In this document: positions 13,122 to 62,299 of the stretch, in pieces
Layout of the letters: each line of letters begins with the position of its first letter
Numbering within the stretch: the first letter of the stretch is position 1
NCBI RefSeq assembly: GCF_029227915.1
Contig: NC_079881.1
Coordinates: forward strand, 19,317,501-19,381,500
Direction of reading: 5' to 3'
DNA: 64,000 bases
Source of the DNA: Hydractinia symbiolongicarpus
Taxonomy: Eukaryota; Cnidaria; Hydrozoa; Anthoathecata; Hydractiniidae
Notes under the pieces: generated by a model
What the model saw: the letters and a program-made list of their open reading frames with translations, nothing else
What the model was told of the DNA's origin: nothing
Databases searched by the model: none
Made by a program: the position numbers and the translations under genes

Positions 13122-14260
13122 ATGATTATGAGATAAAAAGACAGCAAGCTGTGTTGATGGAACTGGTCTAACGACCCTTGAAGTTAAATTGTAGAGGTAA
13201 CACCCTCTAAAGATCAAAACGCAGTGTAAGATCTCCCTTTTTGCAAGAATAGTCTGTAGATTCAAGGTAAATGAACCAAACAACCCTCTCTACACAATAA
13301 AATACGTACAACTAACGATCGTTACACAAAAACAGACAACATCAAAACAGAAGACAGATATCATGACAACAATACAACAGAACAGAATTTACTATAGATA
13401 AATATAAAACTATATATATGAGCAGAAAACCACCCAAGCGCCAGGACTTGTGAACCTGGCAGTAGCTTTCCACATGTGTTAGGCGATCCCAACACTCAGT
13501 CTTACATGGGTAGTTGTGGCTTTGGACCGGCCTGAAGACAGTGGAGTAATCTTCGTGGATGTAAAGTCACGGAAACAAGAAATATAGAAATGAAAACCCC
13601 TTATATAGCTTCTTCCTAACATCAGGTATAGCAAGATCGTTAACCCTTAGCCTCCCTACAGAACCGGGTTTATAAGAAGGGTCTTTACACCCAAAGACAA
13701 GGCCATTGCCAAGCCCCCTTGCTAAGCTTCTTATAATTGCGTTCTAGATAAGCAGCGAGTGAGGCAACTTATAAATTAACGGTAAACTGCATCTGAAACA
13801 AACAGCAGGGGTAATTTAAAACCGCTAGGAAAAAAAGATCCCTCCCCTTTTGGTATAATGTACTCCACTATTTAAATGTTGGCAAAAAATAACACATACA
13901 TTGTGGAATTATTTAGATCAGATGGCTGGACACTAATCACTAGCCTATCACTACACCCTGATTTCTTATGTAAGGCCAATAGTGACACGCCGCCAGTGTG
14001 CCTGAATGATAAATAGTGCCGGTTAATTTATCAGAGAAAGGCGGAAGAGTCTAAAACTGTGGTGGATTTAGACAACAGAGACATTATCAGCAAGACGGAC
14101 TTGGCCATGGGGGAGAACAAGACCAAAGTGCAGGAGTTACAGATAATGCTTGCAGGATAGAATTAGCATAGCATTTATTCCCTTTAACAATCAGGCCAGC
14201 ATTAGTTGATTTGGCTGGAGTGCTGTTGGTAGGCGGTTCTGAGCATTCTTTTGTTTCCTT
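13122..14260 (-). mobile_element. USP1-type copy with internal deletion
   Basis: Minus-strand copy of the USP1 element. Its 5' portion (about 14260-14040) encodes the proline/threonine linker EPPTNSTPAKS and the USP Cys box, read as GNKCYANSILQ; the usual GNTCYANS has Thr changed to Lys before the catalytic Cys. The sequence then jumps, near 14035, to the His-box region (HSGTLAA..HYW), so the whole zinc-finger and palm part is missing relative to 27850-28480. The 3' region (13960-13122) matches 28650-29495 closely, including the CUUG hairpin at 13141-13152. It is non-coding as a protease and shows that the 3' region persists without the enzyme. Confidence 0.7.
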
Positions 14261-15628: not shown

Positions 15629-18485
15629 ATGCACAAAATTTGGGAGGGTGTTCGTAGCATTATTTCTACGAAACCGTCGAAATCTAATATTCCTACCTCC
15701 ATTCACGTTGACGGTAAACTTGAGACAAACCGTATTGAGATTGCCAATAGTTTTAATGACTTTTTTACATCCATAGCAAATTCTATTAGGAACAAAATTC
15801 CACCTACATCCAAGAGGTACTCTGACTACCTCAAAAACCCAAGCCCAGACTCAATTTTCTTATCACCTGTTACCGAAGAAGAAATCATCAGGATTATTGG
15901 CAACATCTCTCCAGGAAAATCTTCTGGACCAAACAGTATTCCAATCAAAATTCTAAGATTGTTGGAAAATGATATTTCCAAACCTATATCAATTTTGATC
16001 AATCTTTTGTTTGAATCTGGTATCTTTCCTAGATCTTTAAAAACATCCAGAGTGGTGCCTGTTTACAAAAACAAAGGTTCTTCTATAGATGTGTCAAATT
16101 ACAGACCAATCTCATTATTGTCAAACATTGAGAAAATCTATGAAAAGGTTATGTACAACGGAATCATAGGCTTTCTCAACAACCATGATATCCTATATCC
16201 CAAACAGTTTGGATTCAGAAAACAGCATTCAACATCACAGGCTGTGCTTGAAAAAGGTTTACAATACAGCAAGCTGCACTGAAGTATCTTGTCTACAGGG
16301 ACGGTGGATGTAAATAAAATTGGGATTAGGCTCCCAGAAGAAGGTGCTGAATACACTTTCTTGCTTATTACAAGCATGAGTACTGTCCAACTTGGACCTA
16401 TAACTATTCACTGAGAAAATCTTAAAGAGAAAAAACAATCCTTCAATCACAAACAATACGACACAAGACAGATCTAACAACATAAACGGACTGGTTACAG
16501 AACAAACACAAATGGAAAAAATGTATATGTCAAAAATATATAATATAAAAAAAGAATTATATAAAACCCTCCTGTGCGCCAGAACTTGTGACTCTGGCTG
16601 TAGCTTTCCACATGTGTTACAGGGCCCCAACACTCAGCCTTACACAGGAGGTTGTCATGACAGGACCAGCCTGTACATATTTTGACTAAGGACAGCAGGG
16701 TTGTCAAGCCTGAAGACCAAGTTAGTAAACTTGGGCACCTTACTGAACTGGGGTAAAAAGTGGGGTCGTTACACCCAAAGACAAGCTGAAAGCAAACCCC
16801 CTTGCTAAGCTTCTTTTAAGTTACCAGAGAAGAGTGAGCTGAACTCTTTACCCTCTGGGTATTGACGGCAAACTGGTTCGAATGAACGAGCTGGGGTAAT
16901 ATAAAACCGCTCGGATTTACATTTTCCTCCCCCATGACCCTGGAAGTACAGGTTTTATAAACGTAATGATAAATGTATCAGAAAGAAAGAAAAAGCGGAT
17001 CAACAGCGAACGTAACAAAGAATATAACATGAATTGTTGTTGAGAATAGGTGGAGAGCATTTGCAAACCGCTCTATCATTGCAGTGGTACCAAGAATTTG
17101 TGGCAGGATCCTTAACATAAGCCCAATAATGACCTGCGGTTAATGTACCGGAGTGATTAATTGTTGCTAACAATGAGTAGTTCTGATTAAACATTGTGTC
17201 CGTATCACTGACGAGAGGTAGTTGCAGGAGAGAGTCACGTAAAGAAACACATTCAACAACTCTGTTGTCTTTTACCAGATGTTCACCATGTTTTAAAAAC
17301 CTTTTAAGATGCAGGAATAAGATTTTACTACTCCTGCTGATTTGCGTTTCTCTAGTATAGTTGAACGCATTAGACATTGCCTTGACAAAGGTGAGCTTGC
17401 CTGTGGAGTGTTTGTTGACTTACAAAAAGCTTTTGATACTGTTGACCACAAAATCCTTCTATCCAAGCTAAATCACTATGGTATTCGGGGAAAAGCAAAT
17501 GATTGGTTCAGGTCTTATTTAACTGGTCGTCTCCAGTATGTCTCAATCGGTGAATTCAAATCTCAACTTAAAGCCATTCTACATGGTGTGCCTCAAGGCT
17601 CTGTTCTTGGTCCGCTGCTGTTCTTGTTGTATATTAATGATCTGCATAATTGTATCAAATCGTCAGAGACCTATCATTTTGCTGACGACACTCATCTGCT
17701 GAAATTCTCAAAATCACTAGAATCCCTTTGTAGAGGGATGAATGCTGATCTTAAACGCCTTGTGTGTTGGCTTAACGCCAACAAAATATCACTGAACTCC
17801 AGCAAAACAGAGTTTCTTGTATTTAGATCCCAATCTCGTAGGCTTGAATTTTTACCTTTTTTGATTCTACCCGGTAGCGCTTACCTAGCGGGATCCTAGC
17901 AAAAGTGTGAAATACCTGGGTGTTCATGTTGATGAACATCTTTCCTGGAAGTATCATGTCTCATCTGTAGCTACTAAACTTCAAAGAGCCAATGTGATGT
18001 TATCTAAAATTCGTCACTATGTTCCCCTAAAATCCCTGCTAAACATTTACCATGCTATCTTTAGTTCTCACTTAAGCTATGCTTGCCAAGTATGGGGCAC
18101 TCGAGACACCACAGTAGCCCACAGAATAATTACCCTCTAAAAGGCTGCCCTTAGGCTGATCACCTTCAGTGAACCAAGATCCCCATCTTTGCCTATATTT
18201 GCAGAACTTGGAATTCTTAAATTCTTCGACCAAGTTAAAGTCCTTAACATTCAATTTATCCACAAATTCCTAAACTCTAACCTCCCATCTGACACACTTA
18301 CCTCACTCAAATTTGATCGAATCTCACACTCTCATAAACTAGATGTAACACAATTGGTTTGCTTATTGAACCAACAGTTAACACATCGACGTTTGGATCT
18401 TTTTCATTCTCTAGAATCTCCACATTACAGTGGAACAATCTGCAAAGAAATTATCCTGATACTAACCTCACAAACTGTAAATTAA
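15629..18485 (+). pseudogene. LINE E reverse transcriptase, interrupted
   Basis: The frame 15629-16250 has the pre-RT region, then GKSSGPNSIPIKIL, YRPISLLSNIEKIYEKVM and FGFRKQHSTSQAVL. It resumes after the USP1 insertion at about 17349 with SIVERIRHCLDKG, motif A VDLQKAFDTVDH, GVPQGSVLGPLLFLLYINDL and catalytic FADD. A frameshift near 17880 leads to VKYLGVHVDEHLSW. Further frames (17907-18140, 18189-18485) give the thumb and C-terminus, with a stop near 18140. The pieces together make an otherwise complete CR1/L2-like RT. It is inactive because of the insertion and at least two later lesions. Confidence 0.8.
16251..17345 (-). mobile_element. USP1-type copy, 5'-truncated, inserted in LINE E
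   Basis: Minus-strand insertion interrupting the LINE E RT between QAVL and SIVERI. Its 5' end (17345) is inside the USP domain and its 3' end (about 16251) coincides with the USP1 3' terminus. The coding part (17377-17000 frame) has LFLHLKRF, the His box GTLTAGHYWAYV and HCNDRAV, ending in a stop near 17000. The 3' region matches 28650-29495, and the CUUG hairpin lies at 16266-16277. Insertion into another element, with a random 5' and a fixed 3' end, is direct evidence that the USP unit moves by itself. Confidence 0.8.
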
Positions 18486-19620: not shown

Positions 19621-19984
19621 ATGGATAATAACGCATCTTTTTTCGACATATTTAACTCTAACTTAACATTGAACGACATGACTGATCCAGACTTGAATTA
19701 TTTTAAAAATCTAAAAATTGAAACTACTAACTTTTCTCCGATTGAAGCAAAAACTCATCTTGCGAAATGTAAAAACAAATTTTCGTTGCTTAACATTAAC
19801 ACAAGAAGTATAAGTAAAAACTTCGAAAATCTGAAAACATTGTTATGCAACCTTTTAGTTTTCGCTTCACATACTTGAATAAATCGCTGCTTTGCACACA
19901 AAAAGTACTCAAAAAGTTGCTCAAAGGTGAGGTGCATATATTGTGAAATTCTGGCATCAATTCGTCCAACGGTTCCAGAGAAAA

Positions 19985-22900
19985 ATGAGAAAAACGTCAG
20001 AAAACAGACCATCCTTGAGATTGACGCTACTCTCTACAATCTTCCTCTCGCAACTTCTAATCCGTAAGTGTCAGTTTATCACTTCAAATGGTATCGAATC
20101 TCACGAAACCACTTACGGGAGCATCCGAGAAACATTTACCGTAACTTTATTATGGGCTCAAGGTACGAAACTGCAAACGAGAAAGTTAAACAATAAACAC
20201 TTACTTCATCTACTCCTCTACCTCTCTGCCGATATTGAACCAAACCCAGGTCCTTCACCCTGTCAATACTGCTTCAAAACTGTTCGTTGCAATCAAAAGA
20301 GACTCCGGTGTACTTCCTGCATGAACATCTGTCACGCTTCATGTACAACAGTCAACTGCAAACCACTACCATCCAGAGAGGAAACACCCTGGATCTGTTC
20401 AAAATGCACGCATTCAGAACTACCCTTCCAAAATATATCCACTGATCAGAATCCACCTGTTGAAGTAGAACCTACTGCAGACTGGAAAGTTTCAAGCGAA
20501 CACATCAAAGCTCTTCGTGATAATCGAAATCACACATCAATAGCGACCATCAACACACAAAGTCTTCTTTCATCTCTCACCGAATTCAAACAAATGATTG
20601 AAGACTACAATTTCGATATCGTCTGCGTAACAGAAACATGGCTCCAGAACAAAACTCAAGAAAAATATGTTCAAATCCCAGACTATGTATTCAAAGGTAA
20701 CCATCGAGGAAGTAAGGGTGGAGGTGTAGGAATATACTTAAAAGAATCAATAACCTTTAAAGAACGAACTGATATTCCGAAAATTGATCCTTCCATCGAA
20801 CAATTCTGGGTTGAAGTCAACGGTAAGAACAAAAACTCTCACTATCTCGTCGGATGCATATACCAACCAAGCTCCAAAGAAGGCGAGAAAAGAGAATGGT
20901 GTGACAAATTCGAACATCTCCTGAGTCAAGTTTACGCAAAATGGCACGGTCCAATCGTCATTTGTGGTGACTTTAATATCGACCTTCTCACTAAATCGGT
21001 CAGTCAAGAAACATATATGAACATTTTGAATACGTTTGACTTATCGCAGCATGTTACAAAACCAACAAGAAAAGATAAGACCTTAATCGACCATATCTCG
21101 ACGAACCTACCTGAGAAAATCATCCACCAGAACGTCATCAAAACCGACGAAATAAGTGATCATGACCTCGGTTACGTCATTATAAACATTCGCAAACAGC
21201 GGTTCGAACCAAGATACAAAGTCATTCGCGATGAAAAACGTTTTTCGCTAAATGACTACATTACTGACTTTTCGCAACTACCGTTTAACATCGTTTACGC
21301 AGTAGACGATCCGAACGACAAAGTATCAATGCTAAACCATCTGATTACTGAATGTTTATCACGACACGCTCCATTGAAACGTACCAGATTCACAAGACCT
21401 CCTGCTCCCTGGATGCAAGACCCTATAATCAACAACTCCAAAAATGCTCTCGAAGAGATACGAAAAACCAAATCTAGAGACAACAGTGAATACGTTAAGC
21501 TCCGAAACAACCACAAAAAAATTATCAGAAAAGTCAAGTCAAAATTCATTCTAAAATCGTTATCATCGAGTAATCCTAAGGAAGTATGGAAAACTATCCA
21601 CAGGATTCTCAAACCACCAACCGCTAGAATAAAGTTTGATCCTGATAAACTGAATGATCACTATACCACACTCGCATCTCGTCTTTGCGAGAAAGAAAAC
21701 GTTCCCTTGAATCACAAACAGCTCATATCTGCACTACCACTTGATACCGAACAGTTACTACAAATGCACGAAACAACCTATGAAGAGGCAAACAAGATCA
21801 TTCGAAATCTTCGGAGTGACTGCTCGAGCGGCCATGATAACATCCCTGTCAAATTCCTGAAGCCAGTCCATGACTACATCACATCCCCACTTGTTCACAT
21901 CATAAACAGTTGCATCACCACAAGATCATTCCCTGATCTATGGAAACTGACACGCGTCTGTCCAATTCCAAAAGTTGCGAATCCAACAGTGGCAAAAGAC
22001 TTCCGTCCAGTCTCCATCTTACCAATCCTATCAAAAATCTTCGAGAGAGTAATCTTGAACCAAATACTAACCTTCGTCGAATCCAAAGTATACAACACGA
22101 CACAATCAGGATTCCGAAAAGGACATTCCACCACCACTCTTCTCTTGAAACTGCGTGACGATATTGTAAAAGCAATGAACAAAAATGACATAACCATCGC
22201 AGTAATGATCGATTATTCCAAAGCGTTCGATACCATCGACCATTCAATATTGGTACGCAAACTGAGCCGATTAGGATTTGGACAATCAATTATTTCACTT
22301 ATCGTCAGTTATCTGTCGAACAGAAAACAATATGTACAGGTCGATGACCGAAAATCCCAAACCAAAAATATTTTCTTCGGAGTGCCGCAAGGAAGTATCC
22401 TTGGCCCGATTTTATTCAACATATACGTTACCGACCTACCAAATGAAATCCAAACACCCTCCATCCAATATGCCGATGATACGACCCTTTGCAAATCATG
22501 TCCCAAACAAAACCTTTTCGAATCCATCAAGGCAATTGAACTAGACCTAACATCACTATGCAACTGGTCGAGAGATAATGGTCTGATTTTCAACAGCGAC
22601 AAATTACAAATGATGGTTATTCGAAAACCCAGATCACTGCCATCAGATCGATCCTACCTCCTACGTTCAGAAGGCCGATCAGTAAGACAAGAACTGTATG
22701 TCAAGATACTCTGTATCCAAATGGACGAAAACCTCTCCTGGTTACCTCAAGTGAATTATGCAACAAAGTCAGCTTACGCAAATTTACAAACGATAAAAAG
22801 GTTTAAGAGATTCACCCTGTATAGAGTTCGGAAAACACTCGCGGAATCTCTTGTCCTCTCCAAACTGAGTTATTGCAATACCGTGTACGCTCAAATTCCG

Positions 22901-23137
22901 CAATACTTGAAAAAGCGCATCCAACGTGTACAGTCGTGTGCAGCCGGGTACGTTCTCCGTCGCTACTGCACCCTGAAAGATGTGACAAGTTTGGGTTGGC
23001 TTCTTGTTGAGCAACGTTGTGAATTGGACCTCTCGATCGCAGGTTTCAAAGCTTTAAACGATGAAAAGTGGCCGGACTACTTGTCTATGAAAAAGCTCAA
23101 GTTCAAAAGGATCTCCGATCTATTGATAATGGAATAA
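19985..23137 (+). CDS. LINE B ORF: 2A - PHD-like finger - APE endonuclease - reverse transcriptase
   Basis: The first ATG in frame is 19985 (the open frame extends upstream to a GTG at 19943), giving 1050 residues. Residues about 83-90 are a canonical 2A site. It is followed by a PHD-like Cys/His finger (CQYC, CTSC, CHASC, WICSKC). The APE endonuclease contains INTQSL, CVTETWL, GGGVGIYL, GDFNIDLL and SDHD. The RT has FRPVSILPILSKIFERVIL, FRKGHSTTTLLL, motif A VMIDYSKAFDTIDH, GVPQGSILGPILFN and catalytic YADD. The protein nicks target DNA and reverse transcribes its own RNA. A frameshift near 23090 displaces the last ~70 residues into the frame 23068-23304, so this copy probably makes a protein with an altered C-terminus. 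Confidence 0.85.
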   Translation: MRKTSENRPSLRLTLLSTIFLSQLLIRKCQFITSNGIESHETTYGSIRETFTVTLLWAQGTKLQTRKLNNKHLLHLLLYLSADIEPNPGPSPCQYCFKTVRCNQKRLRCTSCMNICHASCTTVNCKPLPSREETPWICSKCTHSELPFQNISTDQNPPVEVEPTADWKVSSEHIKALRDNRNHTSIATINTQSLLSSLTEFKQMIEDYNFDIVCVTETWLQNKTQEKYVQIPDYVFKGNHRGSKGGGVGIYLKESITFKERTDIPKIDPSIEQFWVEVNGKNKNSHYLVGCIYQPSSKEGEKREWCDKFEHLLSQVYAKWHGPIVICGDFNIDLLTKSVSQETYMNILNTFDLSQHVTKPTRKDKTLIDHISTNLPEKIIHQNVIKTDEISDHDLGYVIINIRKQRFEPRYKVIRDEKRFSLNDYITDFSQLPFNIVYAVDDPNDKVSMLNHLITECLSRHAPLKRTRFTRPPAPWMQDPIINNSKNALEEIRKTKSRDNSEYVKLRNNHKKIIRKVKSKFILKSLSSSNPKEVWKTIHRILKPPTARIKFDPDKLNDHYTTLASRLCEKENVPLNHKQLISALPLDTEQLLQMHETTYEEANKIIRNLRSDCSSGHDNIPVKFLKPVHDYITSPLVHIINSCITTRSFPDLWKLTRVCPIPKVANPTVAKDFRPVSILPILSKIFERVILNQILTFVESKVYNTTQSGFRKGHSTTTLLLKLRDDIVKAMNKNDITIAVMIDYSKAFDTIDHSILVRKLSRLGFGQSIISLIVSYLSNRKQYVQVDDRKSQTKNIFFGVPQGSILGPILFNIYVTDLPNEIQTPSIQYADDTTLCKSCPKQNLFESIKAIELDLTSLCNWSRDNGLIFNSDKLQMMVIRKPRSLPSDRSYLLRSEGRSVRQELYVKILCIQMDENLSWLPQVNYATKSAYANLQTIKRFKRFTLYRVRKTLAESLVLSKLSYCNTVYAQIPQYLKKRIQRVQSCAAGYVLRRYCTLKDVTSLGWLLVEQRCELDLSIAGFKALNDEKWPDYLSMKKLKFKRISDLLIME
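20231..20254 (+). other. 2A ribosome-skipping site (DIEPNPGP)
   Basis: Codons 20231-20254 encode DIEPNPGP, an exact match to the 2A consensus D-(V/I)-E-x-N-P-G-P, preceded by the hydrophobic LLHLLLYLSA. Ribosome skipping is expected between the Gly codon (20249) and the Pro codon (20252), releasing an ~89-residue leader from the rest. 2A sequences in this position of CR1/L2-type LINEs are known from several animals. Confidence 0.85.
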
Positions 23138-23745
23138 TGATTGAACCTGGTGAAAATGGCACTTTCAACAACCAAGTGTCTAAAGTTTTTAATGATTTGC
23201 CAAAAAATATACGTAACCTAGATTCAATTTCAACATTTTACAGTCAAACGAAAAAATATTTTTTAGATAAATCAATCGCCATTGCCTTAGCAAGGGAAGG
23301 CTAGGTTCTCCGATTGTATAAGTATTTCCTTATCAATTTCTGCTAAACCAACTCTATCAAGCGCGGGTCCGAGTTTCCATATTTTTCAACCTCCACCAAG
23401 TTACCAAGATTTTCTTATTTCCAAATCTCGTTTAGACATATCGAAACATATGATAATCCCTGAGCCTCCACAGTGAGCCTTCCTATGCTTGGGTTTTATA
23501 TAGTATACGAAGTCTTTCAGAGTCGAAGGAGACCTTCCGCCGATATACAACTATAGCCTATGCTTTTCCTCTATTTAATCTATCAACAACCATTTAACAA
23601 AACCTAAATCTACAACTCTTATTGAAACCTAGATCTCCATGCTTCTTGTATCATTTTTGTTCTAAACTTTTTATTCTTATTGTTGTTATTATTATGTTAT
23701 TATAGGGATAAGAACCATTGTATAATGGAACCCAAATAAATGTCA

Positions 23746-23776
<31 letters not shown>

Positions 23777-24785
23777 TTCAAAATCATTTGTGTAACAGAA
23801 ACCTGGCTAAAGGAACACATGGTTACGAATTCAAATTTTAACATTCCGGGTTATAAGTCAATACATCAACCACGTTCAGGAAATATGAGTGGTGGTGGCA
23901 CATGTCTCTTTATACACAACTCTATTACTTATAAATTAAGACTGTGACTGTGAATCATTAACCGTTAAACTTATAAACAAAAACACTAGAAATATAATTG
24001 TGACTGTTATGTATAGAAAACCTGCTTCAAAGAATTTAAACGACACTTTAAATCACACCTTACTAAACTAATCACTTAAATAAGCACATTTACATTGCCG
24101 GAGATCTAAATTTAAACATTCTTGAATATACATCAAATAATGAAGTAAAAACCTTTGTAGATACGCTCCTTCAACATAATCTTATTTCAACAATAACCAA
24201 ACCTAGGAGAGTGACTTTGACTTCTGCTACCATAATTGATAACATAATCACAAATAATTTCAGTATTGCTCGCATCCTGCGAAATATTCTTTTTTAATTA
24301 TTAGTTCAATTTTATAAAACTGAATTCAACGATCTGGGGGTTACGCCAGTAGGTCATAAATATAACACAAAAGTCTCGCCCTCGTAAATCCTCAAATTTG
24401 CTCGCAAGAGAAGCCCGTACAGCAGTCACCTATAAAGTATAGTTTTGCTACACGATTTGTTTAATCGATATATAAGACGGCCCTAGAGGTGTCATATTCA
24501 CGACAGAGTTCTTTTTCCGTTCTCGTTTTCTGTAAACAATGCTGGTTTACCAAAAATAATTTGGTACAGTCATCGTTTTTGTTGTCAACCCACTGGGATT
24601 TGATTTCTTTAAAGCATATTGAGACAAGATGTCATGGAATATGATAAATGTGTTGTTAACTTGATATTTTAATGAGGATTGTAGTCACATTGCTTATCTG
24701 AATGTGGTCCATAAATAAGTATAAGCTTGTCAACTGTTAACTGTGGCATAGTTCGTTATGTTTAAAAAATCAATGTTTCAACGTA

Positions 24786-27436
24786 GAACAACTGCCTGTA
24801 CCATTATATACTGCCGAAGTTCAAAAGTTTGACGATCCTGCATTTTTAAAAATAAGCCAAGACAGTATAGAACACTCTATTAATTTAATAAATTTAAAAA
24901 ACTCTCTTGTGACTCAAGTTTTATTTGCCGTAGAGGTTGCTCAAAAGTTAGCTCTGCAGCAGCTGCTTGCCGAAACAAGGGAAAAAATCAAGGTAATACG
25001 TCGGGCAGAGAGACGTCTAAGGAAGAAGGTTAGGTTCAAGAAGGCACAGTCTGCTTTCAGGACAAACCTGTTTGCAGCTGGTAAAGCCTTGCTTGATCCT
25101 AAGTGTGCAGCCACACTGCGTGTCGATCAACAGACATTACACAATTATAAATCTTTGGTTGTCAAGGATGAATTGTATGACGTTCCCTTGTGTAATCTAG
25201 AAGGTCTTCCTGCTGCCCCTTCTATAACGAAAATTTTTCCCTCACATTCTCTTAAATACAAAGACTTTTTAACGCTTTTAGCAACCAGAAGGAATGCGTC
25301 ATCTCCTGGTTTAAACGCTATTCCCTATAAAGTTTATAAAAAGTGTCCCAAAATAAATACCCTCTTGTTCAATGTTTTTAAATCTTGTATAAAAAATTGT
25401 GTCGTCCCTGTTCAATGGCGTAATGCTCGTGAAATTTATATTCCAAAAACCAAAACTCCTATGGAGTCAAACATAAAAGACTTTCGACCAATTGCACTTC
25501 TAAATGTCGAAGGTAAGCTTCTTTTCAGCCTCGTATCAAGGCGTTTAGAAACTCATATGATAACAAATAACAAATTTATCAATACATCTGTTCAGAAGGG
25601 ATGTGTGGAAAAGGTTCCAGGCTGCTGGGAACACATGTCGATGGTTTGGTCAGCACTTAAAGATGCCCGCTCTTCTAAGTCGGATCTAGCTACCATCTGG
25701 CTAGATATAGCAAGTGCTTACCCTTGAATTCCTCATTGACTTATCTTTTTTGCCAGCGCTATGGTGTTCCTCCACAGTGGATTTCTTTTATTAGAGATTA
25801 TTACATTGGCATCTACAGCAAATCATTCTCTTCCCTTGCACCAAGTAATTGGCATAAACATTCGCGGGGAGTTTTTGCAGGCTGTACACTATCCATTATC
25901 CTTTTTCTTGCAGGCATCAATATTATTCTTGAGTATACATTACTGGCTTCCGCTCCCAGGTTTATCACATCAAGCAAAGTGTCACTCCCCTTAATTAGAG
26001 CCTTTATGGACGATATCAACCTGATGTCTTCATCAGTGTCTGGTACCCAAACGCTTTTGTCCAGGTGTGCTGCAGCACTAAAACGGGCTGGCATGGATTT
26101 TCGTGCCAACAAATCACGCAGCATCGTGATCATAAAAGGTAAGTCCCTCAATTCAACTCCTTTTGCTCTCCAAAAGCCTGCTGACCCCACAGACTTCTCT
26201 TCCTACATTCCTTCTATCCATTCCATGCCTGTGCGATTTCTAGGCCGTATTATGGATGGTTCTATCTCCGATAGGAAGGCTACTGACGAACTTGAGAAGT
26301 TATCTGCAGGGGTTTCTATTATTGACAAGTCGTTTTATAAAGGCCCTCAGAAGCTGTGGATTTTACAACATCTATTAATCCCGCGCATTCAGTGGCCACT
26401 GCTGATATACGAAGTCTCAATGTCTTGTGTCGGCACCCTTGTCAGTAATGTGTCAGTATTTATAAGGAAATGGCTCAATCTTCACCATTCTACCACTAAT
26501 TTATGTCTTTATGATTCCAGCTCACCTTGCTCTCTACCGATAAAAAGCCTAACTTCCATACTCAAGTCCGCTAAGATCAGTGGACACTTGCTGCTAAGGG
26601 ATTCTAAAGATCCATTGGTTTCGGCAGCTGTATCAATATTAAAGGCTGGTAGATGGAGCGTGTCCAATTCAGTCAGAATTGCTGAAGCAGAATTAAAGAT
26701 TAAAGAAATTATAGGTTTAGGTCTCTGTCCTAAGCCTAAGGGAACTTCTCTTAGACAGTCTCATTCTTTCAGGAAATTAGTATCGGTGACTGCAAAAGAA
26801 ATTGATGGTGAAAAGGATATAAGCAGAGCTTTGCAACTACAGGTACAAGGAAGTTGGACCAGATGGGACAACTACATTAAGAACGACCTCTCCTGGAAGT
26901 CCTTGCTTGCCATGCCACCAAACCTGTTGTCGTTCTGTTTAAGCTCCACCTATGATGTTCTTCCTTTTCCGAGTAATTTAAGGCATTGGCGTATATGTAC
27001 CGAATCCTTCTGTTTCTTGTGTGGAAAACAAGTCTGCACTACAGCTCACATTTTAGGGGCCTGCAAAACGGCTTTAACACAGGGTAGATTTACGTTTCGT
27101 CACGACTCTGTCTTGCGCGAACTTTCACAGTTGATCACCACGTTTTCCAAATCTATTTCCTCTCCTGTAAAGCACCTAAATAATGTAAAATTTGTTAAAG
27201 CAGGTGGTCACTCATCTAGCAAAAAATCAAAACCGGTAGGCCTTTTGCATCTTGCCACTGACTGGTTATTTCTTTCAGATTTAAATGGTGAACTTATTTT
27301 TCCTGGTCATATTGCCATAACATCGCTTAGACCAGATCTTGTCCTGTATTCCAACAACAGCAAACGTGTTATTTTAATTGAACTTACATGCCCTTGTGAG
27401 GAAAACATGGAAACCTGGCACTCCAAAACGCTCTAA
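24786..27436 (+). pseudogene. RT - CCHC finger - restriction-like endonuclease part of polyprotein
   Basis: The coding frame is open from at least 24786. N-terminal region: FAVEVAQKLALQQLLAETRE and a basic RRAERRLRKKVRFKKAQ block. RT motifs: SSPGLNAIPYKVYKKCP, DFRPIALLNVEGKLLFSLVS, motif A IWLDIASAYP, RGVFAGCTLSIILF, and motif C AFMDDINLM (26002-26013). A CCHC knuckle (CFLCGKQVCTTAHILGAC, about 27011-27064) follows. The RLE of the PD-(D/E)XK type has RPDLVLYS, then VILIELTCPCEENMETWHSK. This order (RT, CCHC, RLE) is that of the R2/R4/NeSL/HERO grade of non-LTR elements. One frameshift lies at about 25720, and another just after 27430. The clade is not settled. Confidence 0.8.
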
Positions 27437-27477
27437 ATACATCCCTTTGATAAAATATCATCGAGCATAATGGATGG

Positions 27478-28650
27478 CACGTAAATCTGTTCGAGATCGA
27501 AGTGGGTGCACGTGGATATTGCTCTCTGTCAGCCGTCAGGAAATTAGGCGACATTTGTTTAAAAACATCCTGCATTTGGCTATCCAGGAACTCAATTACG
27601 TTGAACCAAGGCAGCTGCAATCTTGTGCCAGGCTCTACATCTGTGCCTACCCCTCTATTGCCAAAGGTTACAAGCCCGCAGCAACAACAACAGCATCAAC
27701 AACGAAGGCCAACTGTGGATAAAAGTCACTCACACCCGGACCCAGAACCGCCTACCAACAGCACTCCAGCAAAACCAACTCATGCTGGTCTGATTAATAA
27801 AGGGAATACATGCTATGCTAATTCTATCCTGCAAGCATTATCTGTAACTCCTGCACTTTGGTCACAAAGTGCATCGGAGTCCTCTTTTGTTTCCCCCCTG
27901 GCCAAGTCCGTCTTGCTGACTATGTCTCTGTTGTCTAAATCCACCTCAGTTGTAGACCCTTCCGCCTTTCTCCAAGCGTTACAACGTAAGATGTCCAATG
28001 CTAGGAACAACCCATTCAATATTAACACACAGCGGATGTTCCTGAGATTCTACCTCATGTATTAAACGAGTTGACAGGGCCATCAGTTATCGCTAACAAT
28101 ATTATTACCAACAAAGTAACTACAACAATATCTTGTAATTCATGCCTCTTGTCTTCCAGTAGGGAGGAAAGTATGTCCATTCTGCCACTCCCTGTTTCAA
28201 ACAACATAACAGGCTCCATTAAAGCTTTTTTGCAACCAGAATATATGTCTGGAAATGACAGATGGATGTGCCCACAGTGCTCTTCCCTTCAAGACAGTAC
28301 CCGGGAAACTGTCTTCAACCAGTGTGGAGATATACTGATCATCCAACTGAAAAGGTTTAACTGTATCCAAGGAAGATCTGTGAAAAATAATAAATTTGTT
28401 TCTTGCCTCGCCCAAGGTCACGACTCCCTAAAAGTTTATTCCCATCCTGCGGAGAATATATCATTCACAAACCAATATAAATTAACCGCCACTGTTAATC
28501 ATTCAGGCACACTGGCGGCTGGTCACTACTGGGCTTTCATAAAAGATCAGGGTGTTAATACATGGTTAAAATGTGATGATAGGGCAGTGATTAGTGTCAA
28601 ACCATCTGATCTAGATAACTCCACAGTGTATGTGTTATTTTTTGTCAAAA
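27478..28650 (+). pseudogene. end of RLE domain fused to USP (C19) deubiquitinase
   Basis: The frame from 27478 begins with HVNLFEIEVGARGYC and IWLSRN, the usual C-terminal end of the RLE domain in this grade. With no stop it runs through a Gln/Pro-rich linker (PQQQQQHQQRRP, EPPTNSTPAKP) into a USP domain. The Cys box is GLINKGNTCYANSILQAL with the catalytic Cys codon at 27811-27813. A 1-nt lesion near 28035-28065 shifts the frame at the Q-D box. In the next frame (28071 on) come zinc pairs CNSC and CPQC, IIQLKRF, the His box GTLAAGHYWAF (His 28524-28526), and CDDRAV (Asp near 28575). All triad residues are present, so the enzyme decayed recently. The frame runs to 28829, but sister copies stop near 28650. 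Predicted role: removal of ubiquitin from the element's own or host proteins. Confidence 0.8.
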
Positions 28651-29495
28651 GTACATTATATCAAAAGGGGGAGGGATCTCTTTTTCCTAGCAGTTTGAAA
28701 TTACCCCTGCTGTGTGTTTTACATACAGTTTACCGTTATTCACGAGTTCGCTCACTCGCCGCTTTCCTAGAAAGCAATTATAAGAAGCTTAGCAAGGGGG
28801 CTTGGCAATTGCCTTGTCTTTGGGTGTAACGACCCCAGTTATAACCCCAGTTCCGTAGGGAGGCTAAGTTGGCTCACTTAGTCTACAGGGTTAACGATCC
28901 TGCTATACCTGATGTTTCGAAGAAGCTATATAAGGGGTTTTCATTTCTATCTTTCTTGTTTCCGTGACTTTACATCAACGTTCATTACTCCACTGTCTTC
29001 AGGCTGGTCCTGACTTACGGCTGGTCCTGACTTACGGCTGGTCCTGACTTACGGCTGGTCCGAAGCAAATGGCTGGTCCAAAGCGACAACTACCCGTGTA
29101 AGGCTGAGTGTTGGGATCCCGTAACACATGTGGAAAGCTACTGCCAGGTTCACAAGTCCTGGCGCTCGGGTGGTTGTCTACTCATATTTATAGTTTTATA
29201 TTTATTTATTTATTTTTATAGTAAATTCTTTGTTGTATTGTTGTCGTTATGTCTGTCTTCTGTTTTCATGTTGTCAGTTTTTGTGTACCGACCGTTAGTT
29301 GTACGTATTGTATTGTGTAGAGAGGGTTGTTTGGTTCAATTACCTTGAATCTACAGATTATCCTTGCAAAAAGGGAGATCTTGCATTGCGTTTTGAACTT
29401 TAGAGGGTGTAACCTCTACAGTTTTAACTTCAAGGGTCGTTAGACCAGTTCCATCATCACAGCTTGCTGTCTTGTTATCTCAAAATCATCGTACG
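28651..29495 (+). repeat. USP1-type 3' region with conserved hairpins
   Basis: Shared with 13122-13960 and 16251-17000 (minus) and 55200-55925 (plus). Landmarks in order: a GGGGGAGG tract, an AGCAAGGGGGCTTG module with hairpin GGGT/ACCC (28822-28835), a GGGTTAACGATCCTGCTATACC block, a CCAGG/CCTGG hairpin (29144-29162) and the terminal ACAG-CTTG-CTGT hairpin (29459-29470). At 29018-29066 a 17-bp unit (ggctggtcctgacttac) is repeated in tandem about three times, only in this copy. Likely role: recognition of element RNA by its RT. Confidence 0.7.
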
Positions 29496-29990: not shown

Positions 29991-32900
29991 TCATCTTGAA
30001 AATTGTGGCTCCTCGTCGGGGATTCGATATTCTAACAATTGTATCAATTTCGTGATTGGTCGATCCAATATTGTACCAGCACGGCTACCAAGCTTCACGC
30101 TACAACTCCGAACCTTTCCATCTGCACCCGTTTTTACAGCCACCACTCTTGCCAGTGGCCACCGTCCTCTTTCACAATCCTCATTTTGCACCATCACTAT
30201 ATCACCGGCAGCAAAATTTCGTTCGTTTTTATTCCACTTTGTTCGTGTCTGTAGTGAACACAGATATTCGCATTTCCATCGTCTCCAGAACATATCCAAC
30301 ACATACTGAGCTCTTTTCCACTGTTTCCTGCAATATAACGACGCTTCTTCAAAATTACCAGGAGGCGGTAAAACTACCTTTGATTTCATCGTTAGAAGAG
30401 CAGGTGGTAAAATTGGTGTTGCACTGTTTGCATCGCTGATTGCTTCGACGCATAAAGCTCTAGAGTTAACGATACTTTTTGCTTCTGTTAAAATAGTGTG
30501 CAGCGATTCTTCACTCAAACGCGAGCCATTATGATTGAAAAGATCTTTTAATATTGCGCGCACAGATCGAATCTGGCGCTCCCATACTCCACCCATGTGC
30601 GAAGCAGCAGGTGTATTCCTCTTCCAGAGAATCCAATCACAACCAACACTTTGAAGGAATTGTTTAACTTTCGCGTTGTCCATTTGTTTTAATGCCTTTA
30701 TGAACTCGGTCTTGGTGCCGACAAAGTTAGTGCCGTTGTCGCTTCTCATCGTTCGAATGTTTCCTCTTCTAGCAACAAACTGTCGCAAAGCTAGAATGAA
30801 GGAGTCAGTTTCCAAGGTGTTGACAACTTCAATATGGATGGCTCTGCTCGCCAAACAGGTAAAGAGGCAGCCATATCTTTTTACAAACTTTCGATATGGT
30901 TTTATGACCAATGGCCCAAAGAGATCCACTGCGCAGTATGTGAAAGGTGGGCATGCGTCTACTCGATCTTTAAGTAAATCAGCCATGACTTGCTGGCCAG
31001 CTCTTCCCCTCAATATTCTACATCGTACGCAATGATGAATCAACTGTCGTACTGCTGAGTTGATGTGTATGATCCAATATCCACGTTGCCGAATTTCTTG
31101 CAATGTTATTCCTCTCCCCGAATGGTGAGTGTTTTCGTGGCACCATCGGAGCACAAGTTCGGAAAACCAACTTTCTTTGGGAAGAATAGCAGGATATTTG
31201 AATTGATACGCTTCATCCATGTTGCACAATCTTCCACCAACTCTGAGAATTCCATCATCGTCAATGAAAGGACTCAATTTGTATAATTTGCTGCATTCTT
31301 TCAAAGCAGACTTCTTAATTTTGTCGTTTCGTCGATCTTGTCTCCATTCCTTTGAAGCAAGAGCTTTAATTTCAGAGGCAAAGTGTTGTTGTTGTACTAA
31401 TTTTATTAAACATTTTTCGGCTCGTTGAAGATCTTCAACGCACAGCACTGGGGGACTCGCCTTCTGGCTTCTTCTTGTCATACCATGACTTGGGGCTTTT
31501 ATTTTCATCTTCAGAATGTCGATAAATCGACCGACCAAGGCCATGACCCGTATGCATTTCTGTAGCCTGGAAATTCTTCTCTCGAATGTACATAAGATTC
31601 CAGAATCAGTTGCTGAAACAAATACTGAAACGCTACGTTTAAATTCGGGATCATCAGTGACACTGTTTTTCGCTGGATCGTAGGCAGCTGGCCATGCTTC
31701 CCTTTCTTCCCAGAGAAACTGAGGTCCCTTGAACCATCTACTACTCTTCTCTACATGTTTCAAACTTATGCCTCTCGAGGCATCATCGGCTGGGTTTTCA
31801 TGGGAAGGAACGTGATTCCATTGATCCAACGAAGTATTTTCTTGAATTTGTTGAATTCTATTTGCCACAAAAATATGAAAACGTCTTGATTCGTTATTAA
31901 TATAACCCAGTACTACGTTGCTGTCTGTCCAATAACATTCGTAGTCTACGACAGGCATTTCTTGCTTCAACATTACTCCGACCTTTACGGCCACAGTTGC
32001 TGCTGTCAACTCCAACCTTGGTATTGAAACCATCTTTATTGGAGCTACTCTCGATTTTCCAAGGAGTAAGCAGCAGTTGACGTTTCCTTCTACATCTCTG
32101 ATGCGAAGATACGTAGCAGTTCCGTAACTTTCATTGGATGCGTCTGAAAAATGATGGAGGGACGTTGACTCGATCTCTTTGAAATGAAGTGGTTTGACGC
32201 ATCGGTTAACTTCCAGTTTTTCAAGAAGGACGATATCTAATCGCCATCTTTCCCAAGCGATTCAAAGAGGTTCAGAGATCTCTTCGTCCCATGATGTTTT
32301 TTCTTTGCAAAGATTTTGCATAATTTTTCTACCCTTCAACAAGAACGGCGCTGCTAATCCAAGCGGGTCATAAATTGAGCTTATGGTAGCCAACACCCCT
32401 CTCTTCGACAGAGGTTTGTCTTGCATGGTTATGCCAAAACCTAGTTTGTCGTCCTCTATCGACCAATGAACACCGAGGGCCCTTTCGATCGGCAGCGATT
32501 CGTTTTTCAAGTCCAGGGACTTTATGTTCTTTGCGCGTTCTTCAGTAGGAATGGAATTGATAACCTCTCTGCTATTTGATATGAACTTTGTGAGGCGGAA
32601 GCCACCTTTGCTGCAAATTTGTATCGTTGATTTGATGATTTTGATGGCTTCTTCGATACTTTTCACGGATTTCAAAAGATCGTCGACATAAAAATCCTTC
32701 ATAATAACTTTCACAGCCTCCACACCAAATTCACTTTCGTTGTCTGTTCCACTTCTTTTCAGGGCATAGTTGAAACAACTTGGGGAGGAATTTCCACCGA
32801 ATATATGGACAGTCATGCGATGATCTACCAAATCTTTAGAGGTATCCCCATCAGGCCACCAAAGGTATCGCAAATAATCCCGTTGATTCGGCGGCACCTT

Positions 32901-33878
32901 AATCTGATAGAACATGGACTCGATATCCGCCATAAACGCTACTGGTTCCAACCGGAATCTACACAGAATTCCAACTAGCAGATTTGTCATATCTGGGTCT
33001 TGCATGAGTCGTCCGTTCAGGAAGACGCCTTTGTATGTAGCAGTACAATCAAATACTACTCTGATCTTCACAGGCTTACGCGGATGATAAACTCCATGGT
33101 GGATAATATACCACACATGACCAGGTTCCCTTTCAACTTCCTGCTCTGGAACCATCTCCGCGAAACCTTGGGTCGTCAGGTTGTTCATGAACGTGAGGTA
33201 ATCCTCTTTGAAGATCGAATTACTTTCAAGCTTCTTCTTGATCCATTTCAGCCTTGCCAAGGCCTGACATTAATTATTTGGAAATGGAAGTTGGTTTATT
33301 AAAGGCAGCGGTAGTTGATATTTTCCATTTACAAATTTTACTTCCTTTTCCATTAGTGATAAAAATTTTTGGTCGTGAATGGATACGTAATCACTTTTAA
33401 TATTCTTGAATGCGTTCATTTCTGAAAAATCAGCATCGTACATTCTTTTCAGCATCCCCTCAATTGTTACATCCCGTAATTCATCTTGTTGAATTAGGTG
33501 AAGTGCAGCAACTTTGTCAGTGGAGGAATCTTTCACAGCAATTCTGTTGCATCGAATTTTCTGCTTCTCCCCTTTGCGACGAAGCACAGGTCCGACAAGA
33601 CTCCATCCCAACCTTGTTTTTAACCCATATGGTCCATTTCCATCGGATGGAATTACCTTTATCGGTTCTAGCGCTTGTGGGCAATTGGCTCCAATAAGCA
33701 AACCAATCGGTATTCCAGGATCGTATTTGTGAAAGGAATGCTTTATATGTCGCAAATGAGGCCATTCAGCAACTTTCTCGGGAGTAGGTATTTCCATGGG
33801 ATCTATTGGAAGATGTCTTCTACTGTAACAACTCTGTATTGTTACTTTGAAATCTCGTGTAATGGGCTCTACCATCAA
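29991..33878 (-). pseudogene. BEL pol: protease C-part, RT, RNase H, integrase
   Basis: Read downwards. 33878-33270 is the region after the aspartic protease (peptidase A17 type: PIGLLIGANCPQALEP, GPYGLKTRLGWSLVGPV). 33260-32262 is the RT with catalytic YVDDLL. The RNase H-like region begins in the gap 32261-32034 and continues with SIPRLELTAATVAVK and CYWTDSNVVLGYI. The integrase has an HHCC finger (HENTHHSGRG, then HHCVRC), the first Asp in AVDLFGPL, the second in RSDNGTNFVG and the Glu in HMGGVWERQIRSVR. In-frame stops are TAA at 33270-33272 and TGA at 32262-32264; the frames on both sides agree, so these are simple nonsense changes. The Gag-protease part is frameshifted relative to this near 33850. 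Confidence 0.88.
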
Positions 33879-36148
33879 GCCGGTTATTAGACAAAGTCTT
33901 CACGACGATCGTCGACGAAATACCGGTTAAATTCAAGCGATGAACGATTTCATCGGTTATGAACGTACCCTGACTGCAATTATCCAACATAGCATAGGTG
34001 GTGATTAACTCATCAGACTTTGGATGCGACAACACCACAGGCACTACAGACATGCTGATGATTTCTACGTTGTTATCTGTCTTGCAACAAACAGATTTCT
34101 TCGTTCTTGCAAATGCATCTGAGATTTCAGGCTCCTCATCTTCCTTTTTATCATTATTTTCCTTGTCGTTCTTGTTGGTCCTCTTTGGTCGGATGAAACC
34201 ATGCAAAATGGTTGGGTGCCTCTTTTTGCACGTCTTGCAAGACAATTTGTTTTTGCAATTTCTTGCTTGGTGATTGCTGGTAATTGGTTCCAAACACGCG
34301 AAACAAAGCTTCTTCTCCCAAACAAATTTGTTTCTTTCCTCTACGTCTATTTTCATTATTTTTCGACAATCTTCCAATTTTTTCGAACAGTAGAGACAAT
34401 CTCTGGTAACGCCCGTCAGGTTTGTTTTAAGTTTGGGTGGATCTTTCTTGTTTTTCACGTCATTATCCTTTCTATTCTTCAATTCACTGATGGCTTCTCT
34501 AGAGTAGAGGGGATCATTTTCAAGCGTTGTCTCCTGCTCCATGAAGTCAACAAAATCCCTCAGCTCCGCTTCGTGATGGTTTTTCCGACGGACGTTGAGA
34601 ACCGTCCGATTCCATCTTTGTTGCAAGGCTTGTGGGAGCTTTGATTGAAGTTGTCTGAGGACTTCTGGAGAGTTTAGTTCGCTTTTTATTTGTCTCTCCA
34701 TAACAAAGTAGCATTTTATGAGGAACGTATAGAACTTTCTGAACGCTTCAGAATCACCAGCACGGAGAGTGGGCCATTCTCTGAGCTCCTTTCTGTAGGC
34801 ATTTGCAATTCTGAATTGATCACCGTAGGTTTTCTTCAGAAGATCCTTTGCTCTTGAGTAGCAATGTTCTGATGTATCATATATACAGCTTTTGATCAAT
34901 TCTTTTGGCTCACCAGTTGTGTAATTGATCAGGCGAGTCAATCGACCTTTATTACTTTTGATCTTGGTCTCAACAACTGCTTCAAATGTGGTCATGAAGT
35001 ATTGGAAATGAAGCACATTTCCATCAAATGGGTCAATTTTGATGTCTGGTGCACTTTGCTGTAGCAGTAATTCGCATAACACCCTTTCTGTGTTATTTCC
35101 AAATGGGTTTGGAGATTCCTGCTCATTGTTAATGTTCCAGTCTTTGTTAACATCAACTGAATTATCGACCACTTGCGATTGCGCGGTGTTTTGTGGCACA
35201 TCAGGAAGAAATTTGGGAATTTTCTTTACCAACTTTGGATGACTTCTAGCGCCTTCGTAACCGGAGCCAATGACACCTATACAACCATTATTCACCCTTA
35301 TCAAGATTGGCACTTCGCATATGAGCGGATTTGTTCATCATCCGTGTCCAATGGTCTTGAGAAATGACTTTTTTCATCTTCGTCCTTGGCTTCATATATG
35401 CTGAGTTTTGCTTCTGCCAAAGCAACCTGCTCTTTAAGCTCCAATGTTTTCATGCTTGCTTCAGCTTCCAGTTTTGCTTCTAAAAATGACGCCTTTGTCT
35501 TCAGTTGCGCTAACTCAGCCTTTTGATCCGCAGCACGACTACGCAAGGAAGATACTTGCGAACGACCTGAAGGTCTTGTCTCTTTCGAACGTGTCGAGGG
35601 CGATCTGTGCGATCTATGCGACTTTCCAACTGACTTCGGGTGAATAATAACATCAGCTTTTAGGCTGGTAGTTGCCCGATCAACAACGGGGAACTTTGAT
35701 GATTTGGAGTTGTGAATCCAAGAGCGTCATCTCTCAACAGAGCATTTGTGTTTTCGTCAGCATGAAGCTTTGATTTTTCATACTGGTTCCACGCCCATTC
35801 ATTTCTTTTTAGCCAATCATTACAATGATGCTGAAAGAGTCGAACCCTATCCTCAAGTCTAGTCAATTCTGCATTTAAATCTTCCTTCAGTTCTTCTGAA
35901 TTCGCTAATGCCATACATTCATGGCTGTAAGCTTTAAATTCAGACAGTTTTACGCCAAGGATGTCCACGTTGTTAAAGATGAAGGCATAATTTTCATCCG
36001 ATAAGGCAATATCCATTTCTGCAATCAGTCGATCAATCTCAAGAAGCACCTTTCGCTTGAATGATTCCTTCAAGGAAAATATATATTCCTTTCCCTTGCT
36101 AGTCATTTTCTTGGTCCGAGCAAGTGGGAGAGTATCTGAATAAGACAT
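33820..36148 (-). pseudogene. BEL Gag and aspartic protease
   Basis: ATG 36148 opens the Gag N-terminal coiled region (stop at 35660). A second frame (35546-35301) has a long Ala/Glu-rich coiled coil. The main frame (35313-33820) contains the DUF1759-like Gag core (FDGNVLHFQYFMTTFEAVV), cysteine-rich zinc knuckles (CLYCSKKLEDC, CFACLEP, CKTCKKRHPTILHGF) and the protease active-site area AMLDNCSQGTFITDE; BEL proteases commonly have LLDxGS there, here DNCS. At least three frame changes interrupt the sequence. Gag packages element RNA into particles; the protease processes the polyprotein. Confidence 0.82.
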
Positions 36149-37566: not shown

Positions 37567-38590
37567 ATGTTGAGGAGCAGCATCTTGCAGAATATTCAGC
37601 CCTTGGAAGCACCTGAGACATTCTTTGATGTCAAAAAACCCGAAAAACTTGCTACAAGGTCTATTAAAACAACGGTTGCATTGCCATCTAACACTGATGT
37701 TAGGAATAGCGGTCTAAAAAACTTGGGAAACACATGTTGTGCAAATGTTTTTATAACCTTCCAAAAGTTAAAAAAGCCATTTCTGTCAGCCAAACAACCT
37801 CAAAGTTAGGCGAAGCATTCGTAGGTGTTCTTTAAAGTTTGGCTGTTTCTAGAAGTCCAGTTGATCTCTCCCATTTTCTGCTTGCTGTGAAATATATCTC
37901 AGCTGCGAAGGGAAGTGCGTTAAATATCTTTGCTCAGCACGACGTCCTTGAGGTTCTTGACTATCTCCTACCTGGTCTGTCATTAGACTTTCCATTTCTT
38001 GGAAGTCTTTTAAGTATTGGCATCAGGACACCAACCACTTGCAATTCATGTCATAGTACCAGCTCCTCAGAAGTTATAACACCATGCATTAAACTTTCTC
38101 TGCACCCTACGTTATAATCTTCTTTGGATAATTTCTTTGAAAGCGAGGAGTTGTCAGAGACTAATGCCTATTTTTGCCATGTTTGCAACGCTCATCAACT
38201 GCTCTAGTTGAAAAAGAGGTAGTGTTGTGTGGTTGTCATCTCATTTTACACCTAAAACGTTTTGCCAGTGCCAATGGCCTTGTGTCAAAATTCGTCTCCC
38301 GTATTACTGCTTACCCTGGTACCATTTCCATACCTTTTACCGTAGATGGAGAAGTGAAATTTTGTTAAAGGTTTCAATTAAGGGCTATTATCAACCATTG
38401 CGGCAACTTAAATAATGGTCACTAGACAACAATAGCCTTTCACTAAATGGTTCACAGGTGGTTACATTGCAACGATCGAGCGGTAATCTTCTGTGATGAC
38501 TGCCTTATTAACAGGAGTCATATGTTTTCTTTTTAGAAGAGCTCAGGTAGGAATATTTTAACCAGAATGGGTCAGCAAGGGAGCTTGAGA
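37567..38590 (+). pseudogene. USP2-type deubiquitinase domain, multiply frameshifted
   Basis: Plus-strand USP domain with the Cys box GLKNLGNTCCANVF, the Q-D box AQHDVLEVLDYLLPGLS, zinc pair CNSCHSTSSSE, LILHLKRFASANG, then HCGNLNN and the His box region with a stop inside it, and HCNDRAV at about 38456. Lesions lie near 37808, 38118, 38365 and 38424. The 3' region is cut off about 30 bp after the module start (agcaagggagcttgag, near 38573). The relative at 5589-6155 is very close in sequence. No RT is attached within the sequence available. Confidence 0.75.
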
Positions 38591-57640: not shown

Positions 57641-57757
57641 TGTTTTAACATTTTTATTCAGTTTCTCACATGCTTCATCAAGGTCATCATAATTATTAAA
57701 ATATGACCAGTCTAAATTCCTGAGGTCCTTCAGAAAAGCCTCTTCACTGAAGTTCTT

Positions 57758-59065: not shown

Positions 59066-59242
59066 TCTACGGTTATGTGCTCTTTCAAAAAAACTATGTT
59101 TGAAGGATCTGAGGCAAGCCCATTTCCTTACGATGTTACACAGAAGGAGCAGCAGGAACCCACAACACAGCAAAGCTACTATATTAGATGATAGATGGAT
59201 AAAAAACTGACTGGGATAAAAACAATTTATTAACAAAAACAA

Positions 59243-62135: not shown

Positions 62136-62299
62136 TAGGTTGGTCCCATCCGAAGAGAACATAGAGACTTAGAATCTGCCTCTGTCGCCTATGCTTTTCT
62201 AACATGTCTGTGCGTTCCATTCTGAGATCTCTTACTGAGTCATCTATGCGATCGTCGTTTTTCATCTGGTTATCTCGAGATTCTTTGTCTTGGATTCAT

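Follow-up and report, generated by a model that had tools for sequence, protein, structure and literature searches.

A non-LTR retrotransposon lineage of Hydractinia symbiolongicarpus ending in a ubiquitin-specific protease domain

Results

A broken element copy with a C-terminal USP domain

We analysed a 64-kb stretch of the genome of the hydrozoan Hydractinia symbiolongicarpus (contig NC_079881.1, positions 19,317,501 to 19,381,500; hereafter the window). At 24861-29489 it holds a dead, 5'-truncated and frame-broken copy of a long interspersed nuclear element (LINE) of the restriction-like endonuclease (RLE), or R2, group that ends in a ubiquitin-specific protease (USP). Its features, with the basis for each, are as follows.

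24861-29489, + strand: element copy, a 5'-truncated coding part followed by a 3' untranslated region (UTR); protein homology, DNA copies and common 3' end
24861-26600, + strand: reverse transcriptase (RT) region in two frames, 3' limit approximate; Pfam and protein homology
27011-27064, + strand: CCHC zinc knuckle between RT and nuclease; motif, with zf-RVT below its curated cut-off
27329-27570, + strand: PD-(D/E)XK (RLE) nuclease, 3' limit approximate; motifs and columns conserved in 50 relatives
27571-27780, + strand: Gln/Pro-rich linker, limits approximate; open frame 27454-28065
27781-28652, + strand: C19 USP domain with a frameshift near 28030; Pfam UCH and the fold of the relative P0002
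27787-27825, + strand: USP Cys box, GLINKGNTCYANS; motif
28134-28145 and 28269-28280, + strand: USP CxxC pairs; motif
28521-28541, + strand: USP His box GHYWAFI; motif
28569-28589, + strand: USP Asp box KCDDRAV; motif
28653-29489, + strand: 3' UTR ending ...CTTGTTATCTCAAAATCAT, without poly(A); 3' end common to same-genome copies

An earlier sequence-only reading had RT, CCHC knuckle and endonuclease run through a linker into a USP domain. Pfam and the motifs bear out this order, with only the end of the RLE sharing the linker's frame, and place all parts on the + strand. The interval it gave, 24786-28650, needs adjusting at both ends: the first ~75 bases are not element, and the element runs on as 3' UTR to 29489. 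Protein homology starts at ~24861-24879 and same-genome DNA copies extend up to 24872. The coding part is spread over four frame pieces (24744-25727, 25682-27436, 27457-28065 and 28026-28829), on which Pfam reports RVT_1 (0.019 and 5.7e-06) and zf-RVT (1.5e-04) under their curated cut-offs and UCH (3.7e-07 and 1.8e-22) above its own. The RT region contains a stop and a frameshift near 25727-25757 and an FMDD box at 26003-26020. The PD...E motif of the nuclease (RPD...E, 27329-27406) lies in a different frame from its EVGARGYC block (27493-27522); this block, the Gln/Pro-rich linker and the USP Cys box share one stop-to-stop frame, 27454-28065, as the earlier reading had stated. All triad residues are present, as it had also stated, but the frameshift near 28030 parts the USP Cys from the His and Asp in this copy. 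The final frame stays open to 28829; most listed relatives stop near 28650. Rfam gave no match in the window at gathering scores and none in three same-genome copies described below (L042, L026 and L044) at E<=1, and thus no catalogued ribozyme was seen; a tRNA scan was empty.

The USP moves with the rest of the element

With a window copy in four frames and surroundings crowded with other transposons, a truncated RLE element might simply lie beside a host USP gene or pseudogene. We therefore turned to other copies in the same assembly (480.9 Mb, 76 contigs; the species is described as having 15 chromosome pairs and an estimated genome of 514 Mb, PMC11067881). The nuclease-USP stretch gave at least 66 scored DNA matches (40 of 117 candidates scored). 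Twenty regions were retrieved, 14 of which (L022-L035) belong to the window family or lie close to it. Nuclease, linker and USP align unbroken in 10 of these 14 loci, and nine share a 3' end at window position 29487-29492, beyond which the flanks are unrelated and carry no poly(A); the 5' ends differ. L022 and L025 have identical flanks and represent one insertion. One locus, L026, retains a 473-amino acid (aa) frame from the nuclease PD motif through the last USP strand.

Intact copies with a single RT-RLE-USP open reading frame (ORF), for which the earlier reading had proposed a search, occur in a young family of the same genome. A genome protein search with P0020 gave at least 38 scored matches (34 of 3723 candidates scored), of which 13 cover at least residues 70-1360, ten of them without an internal stop. 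Each of the three young-family copies read (L042-L044) is a single frame of 1426 aa, or 1421 aa counted from the first Met; their DNA is 99.75% identical. Pfam at E<=0.01 reports RVT_1, zf-RVT and UCH on both L042 and L044, and UCH_1 also on L042. Among 12 same-genome copies compared by eye, two of which share one flank, the 3' flanks are otherwise unrelated. As for target-site duplications, the longest shared end words in 11 copies were 5-7 bases, within the shuffle range, with ends that are blast-defined and approximate.

Thus, the USP transposes with the rest of the element, and in young relatives from the same genome a single open frame encodes the whole fusion. The RT-RLE-USP architecture taken alone is nearly certain. 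Independent insertions have the nuclease, linker, USP and 3' UTR in common and the young copies have them in a single frame, which leaves the juxtaposition artefact a vanishingly small probability. A host USP pseudogene was rejected because the 3' UTR downstream of the USP is shared between separate insertions, and an adjacent insertion or unrelated neighbouring USP is excluded by the unbroken loci and the one-frame young copies. The earlier reading's argument that the fusion is no artefact of adjacent insertions is in this way upheld by same-genome copies that hold RLE, linker, USP and 3' UTR as a unit.

Conservation and spread of the RT-RLE-USP architecture

With the nuclease-USP portion of the joined peptide as query, a protein search yielded 113 proteins (7986 candidates scored); the P0005 RT as query yielded 562 at E<=1e-40, 120 of them listed. 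Domain profiles made from 50 relatives were run on the 185 proteins collected. Wherever two or three of the domains co-occur in one protein, they are always in the order RT, nuclease, USP, and 99 public proteins, together with the window, join RT and/or nuclease to a USP match. The catalytic Cys of the USP is retained in 100 of these 100 rows, 90 of the 91 rows in which all three residues are covered (window included) have an intact Cys-His-Asp/Asn triad, and the four zinc Cys are retained in 89 of 91. The P, D, E and K and EVGARG columns of the nuclease and the Cys/His columns of the CCHC knuckle are invariant or nearly so across the 50 relatives.

Over 380 columns the RT of the window copy shares 79% identity with P0003, and in the RT tree it clusters with P0003, P0005 and P0006. 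P0005 matches the R2 proteins in the PDB with E values of 3.9e-28 (9nl3) and 6.4e-28 (9dou), over the RT only. In the predicted structure of P0002, residues 278-365, in the nuclease, follow the order helix-strand-strand-strand-helix-strand and the linker (residues 426-470) is disordered. The R2 nuclease is described with the same topology (PMC3636483), a correspondence that we made by eye rather than by fold search.

The named sources of USP-bearing elements are the Hydractinia proteins P0064, P0114 and P0123. Two further RT-RLE-USP proteins, P0034 and P0053, are labelled as a Pseudomonadales metagenome-assembled genome, labels that probably reflect eukaryotic contamination. DNA relatives were found at 13 loci (L001-L013), four in viral contigs and nine in genome contigs; these are USP-like coding stretches with 23-30% identity to the element USP and the nuclease uncovered, from IMG/VR contigs and from contigs filed as bacteria (Dependentiae, Holosporales, Cardinium and others). 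In addition, the predicted protein P0080 (1508 aa, ena) combines UCH with DDE_1/DDE_3 and a weak CENP-B_N match, and may be a fusion of a USP with a pogo-like transposase or else a gene-prediction join.

Purifying selection on the USP

The USP coding sequence is under purifying selection. Since the DNA relatives in viral and genome contigs are so distant and leave the nuclease uncovered, selection was tested between two families of the same genome. The USP ratio of nonsynonymous to synonymous substitution rates (dN/dS) is 0.13-0.18 in 60 of 60 pairs, formed by 10 window-family and 6 second-family copies (248-283 codons, dS 1.17-1.53). L033-L035 (degenerate), L025 (flanks of L022) and L032 were kept out of these pairs; the USPs of L033-L035 give 0.67-0.86 with window-family copies or one another and 0.16-0.38 with the second family. 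Post-insertion changes raise dN/dS and the ratio in the active lineages is therefore, if anything, lower than 0.13-0.18. Against L042, a copy of the more distant young family, synonymous sites are saturated and dN/dS was not counted; uncorrected pN/pS rises from 0.23-0.24 in the RT through 0.34-0.36 in the nuclease to 0.46-0.50 in the USP.

Capture, inheritance and loss of the USP

The RT tree comprised 105 rows (63 with a USP, 4 with a cut USP and 38 without), rows with too little nuclease for judging the USP having been removed beforehand; 17 rows without a USP, fish proteins among them, were chosen as outgroup. All USP rows fall within one 88-row clade, with a Shimodaira-Hasegawa-like approximate likelihood ratio (SH-aLRT) support of 99. 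Inside this clade, 18 rows, in groups of 14 and 4, stop 0-46 residues past the nuclease. The fewest USP changes required are three, with P0085 removed (branch length 3.15) and P0121 and P0123 uncounted (set aside as short ORF and gene model), or five if those two are counted. The preferred account of three changes is a single gain with two losses; the alternative of a single shared loss is not rejected (approximately unbiased test, p-AU 0.0695).

In the USP tree, element USPs lie on one side of a branch from 26 cellular USPs (SH-aLRT 95), a small cellular sample that came from the same search and from which 12 proteins were omitted by hand; element rows without a near-complete RT or USP were also omitted. 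A more careful tree with 39 of the 63 element rows and 20 of the 26 cellular rows recovered the element group at 91/89 and in 90% of 200 bootstrap trees. The earlier reading had proposed phylogenies of both domains, and the two trees agree: for the same 39 rows, 22 of 36 splits are common to RT and USP trees (500 label shuffles gave a mean of 0.14 and a maximum of 2) and path lengths correlate at 0.80, a value that 0 of 5000 permutations reached. The history best supported by these sequences is that a USP-less lineage captured a cellular USP once, long ago, with the domain probably inherited with the RT thereafter and lost at least once.

The USP domain and its proposed role

Comparison of the P0002 USP model with solved USPs yielded a USP fold, with 18-30% identity in the structure alignments, and the entries listed by VIA and Foldseek are USPs or USP-fold proteins only. 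The best PDB sequence match is USP36 (5.2e-21 with P0005, 3.6e-13 with P0071). By structure USP2 is nearest, although USP2, USP11, USP46 and USP35 fit the model about equally. These cellular USPs, USP36 by sequence and USP2 by structure, have the fold, catalytic triad and zinc Cys pairs in common with the element USP; they differ at 18-30% structure-alignment identity, and the sampled ones group apart from it.

The polyprotein would thus run from an N-terminal region through RT, CCHC knuckle, PD-(D/E)XK nuclease and flexible linker to the USP, a putative active deubiquitinase tethered to RT and nuclease both on the element ribonucleoprotein and at the nicked target. For a competent-looking deubiquitinase tethered behind the nuclease in the same chain, action in cis follows naturally: it would strip ubiquitin, with the protein of the element itself and its bound partners as the likeliest substrates, and ubiquitin-dependent restriction would thereby be kept from ending target-primed reverse transcription. 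Retention of the USP suggests, from sequence comparison, that the element acts on the host ubiquitin system. Protection from ubiquitin-dependent restriction, which the earlier reading had raised, is our first choice, with action on chromatin or repair ranked second.

According to this second proposal, the substrates of the USP would be chromatin or repair proteins where the element inserts (e.g., ubiquitinated histones, PCNA or FANCD2) instead of the element's own protein, so that the target is opened or repair and second-strand synthesis are steered. Its position directly behind the nuclease on a flexible linker fits such an activity. The authors of PMC2836005 propose a post-transposition repair role for the C-terminal OTU or Ulp1 domain of Ginger1, and a chromatin role is proposed for the Helentron OTU in PMC4067079. 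No result here points to a substrate and USPs of very different roles fit the model about equally; we regard the proposal as rather unlikely, if by no means negligible.

The modifier removed might also be another ubiquitin-like protein (SUMO, Fubi or ISG15-like). One USP36 entry in the PDB (8bs3) is a Fubi complex, and nematode RLE elements are described with a Ulp1-like protease (PMC4640811). Several ubiquitin-bound USPs outrank USP36 by structure, though, and Ulp1 is a different family, leaving this explanation improbable. Finally, the USP might process the element's own polyprotein. Other elements encode proteases that process their polyproteins, whereas USPs cleave after ubiquitin-type Gly-Gly ends. 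Pfam listed no ubiquitin-like domain in L042 and L044 at E<=0.01 and GG occurs in just 11 of 97 linkers, which makes self-cleavage highly improbable.

Several observations weigh against a captured USP that protects its own element. The 18 USP-less rows inside the clade mean that the USP is dispensable. Of the three domains the USP changes fastest and so is under weaker constraint, and in P0001 Tyr replaces the USP His. Support for a single USP group is only moderate (91/89) and accompanied by long-branch warnings, and P0161 is placed differently in the RT and USP trees, so that some swapping of RT and USP is possible. Taken as a whole, we consider the statement that an RLE element captured a USP which serves self-protection to be evenly balanced between right and wrong.

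LTR-like repeats and head-to-tail arrays

Copies of the young family carry the 3'-terminal part of the element a second time, immediately upstream of the unit start, in the manner of long terminal repeats (LTRs). Within-copy repeats measure at least 288 bp and at least 244 bp at 100% identity (to the edge of the stretch) and 208 bp at 99.5%. In four further copies (L045-L048) compared with the L042 unit they measure at least 699, at least 665 and at least 628 bp (to the edge) and 111 bp, at 99.1-99.9%; in L026, of the window family, the upstream repeat is 560 bp at 99.1%. When the 300-bp junction was used as query (40 of 570 candidates scored), 17 of 17 scored matches entering the unit start also contained 3'-end sequence, and 23 matches contained the 3' end only. 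Head-to-tail arrays are present on C11 at 27.11 Mb, with a spacing of 5367 for a 5368-bp unit, and on C13 at 23.68-23.70 Mb, with five junctions 5296-5305 bp apart.

Penelope-like elements carry pLTRs, and R2 RT performs end-to-end template jumping. The varying repeat length and near identity suggest, by analogy with either, that the repeat is made at insertion. The elements show R2-group traits (a single ORF in L042-L044, 5'-truncation and a fixed 3' end), yet full-length copies have LTR-like direct repeats. GIY-YIG endonuclease is a feature of Penelope-like elements; here the RT matches R2, and Pfam at E<=0.01 listed no GIY-YIG in L042 and L044. Tentatively, and with somewhat less confidence than in the self-protecting element above, we propose that an old, recently active LINE lineage may use a captured deubiquitinase in cis at the target-primed reverse transcription complex and may spread as head-to-tail cDNA with LTR-like repeats remade at each insertion.

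Other elements in the window

Six more USP-side fragments of RLE-USP elements, from several families, lie in the window:

5601-6132, 13884-14203 and 17003-17455, - strand: USP-side fragments
37630-38527, 55053-55175 and 62168-63273, + strand: USP-side fragments

Part of one (17003-17356) is 98% identical to the young-family copy L042 and part of another (37630-38009) is 73-85% identical to Hydractinia P0064. An apurinic/apyrimidinic endonuclease (APE)-type LINE occupies 19931-23134 (+) as a single 1068-aa frame with Exo_endo_phos and RVT_1, followed by an A run at ~23744-23770. Adjoining the element downstream, 29994-35334 (-) is the remnant of a BEL/Pao-type LTR retrotransposon with Peptidase_A17, RVT_1, Integrase_H2C2, DUF5641 and DUF1759 domains. 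At 56248-59254 (-) lies a further broken LINE that retains PHD-finger-like, endonuclease and RT pieces.

Discussion

If the reading given here is true, the accessory enzymes known from non-LTR retrotransposons would come to include a USP, and the lineage concerned has many members and young intact copies in Hydractinia. It makes a question testable: is ubiquitin a limit on retrotransposition to which some elements carry an antidote? It also carries a warning for annotation, namely that USP-like fragments in such genomes can be retrotransposon ends and not host USP genes.

The nearest relatives without a USP include fish proteins (Astyanax, Maylandia and others), which we take to be HERO elements. 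The HERO clade has the same order of RT, CCHC and RLE and differs in the C-terminal USP, present here and in none of the 17 outgroup rows. Fish HERO elements are described as inserting without target specificity (PMC3636483), and the unrelated 3' flanks of the elements here likewise indicate untargeted insertion. The R2 proteins 9nl3 and 9dou are homologous to P0005 in the RT; the match covers the RT only, and they have no USP.

NeSL and Utopia are likewise RLE elements with a cysteine protease of the ubiquitin/SUMO world. The earlier reading had cited NeSL-like elements with Ulp1 or OTU proteases: PMC4640811 describes the former, at the N terminus, and we found no paper for the latter. The protease of NeSL/Utopia is thus Ulp1-like and N-terminal (PMC4640811); the one here is a C19 USP at the C terminus, and in L042 and L044 Pfam at E<=0.01 listed no Ulp1, with UCH (C19) at the C terminus instead. 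NeSL/Utopia are reported to target U2 or spliced-leader genes (PMC4640811), whereas no shared target was seen here.

Among DNA transposons, Ginger1 likewise carries a C-terminal OTU or Ulp1 on its mobility protein (PMC2836005). A Trichomonas transposase_11-Peptidase C19 fusion involves the same C19 family, in an account that describes one protein and no family (PMC2836005). Unlike the element here, both are DNA transposons with DDE transposases and no RT. Helentrons are described as carrying an OTU protease (PMC4067079). Our searches of the open-licence PMC literature turned up no non-LTR retrotransposon with a C-terminal C19 USP, and a Repbase or Dfam entry may exist. PMC7599744 mentions deubiquitination in the title of a work it cites, on a Helitron2. 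Ulp1, OTU and C19 proteases are already known in other transposons, and the C-terminal USP on an RLE LINE is a new variation. Together with the Ulp1 of NeSL/Utopia, the OTU or Ulp1 of Ginger1 and the OTU of Helentrons, it would indicate that unrelated mobile elements have repeatedly recruited proteases of the ubiquitin/SUMO systems.

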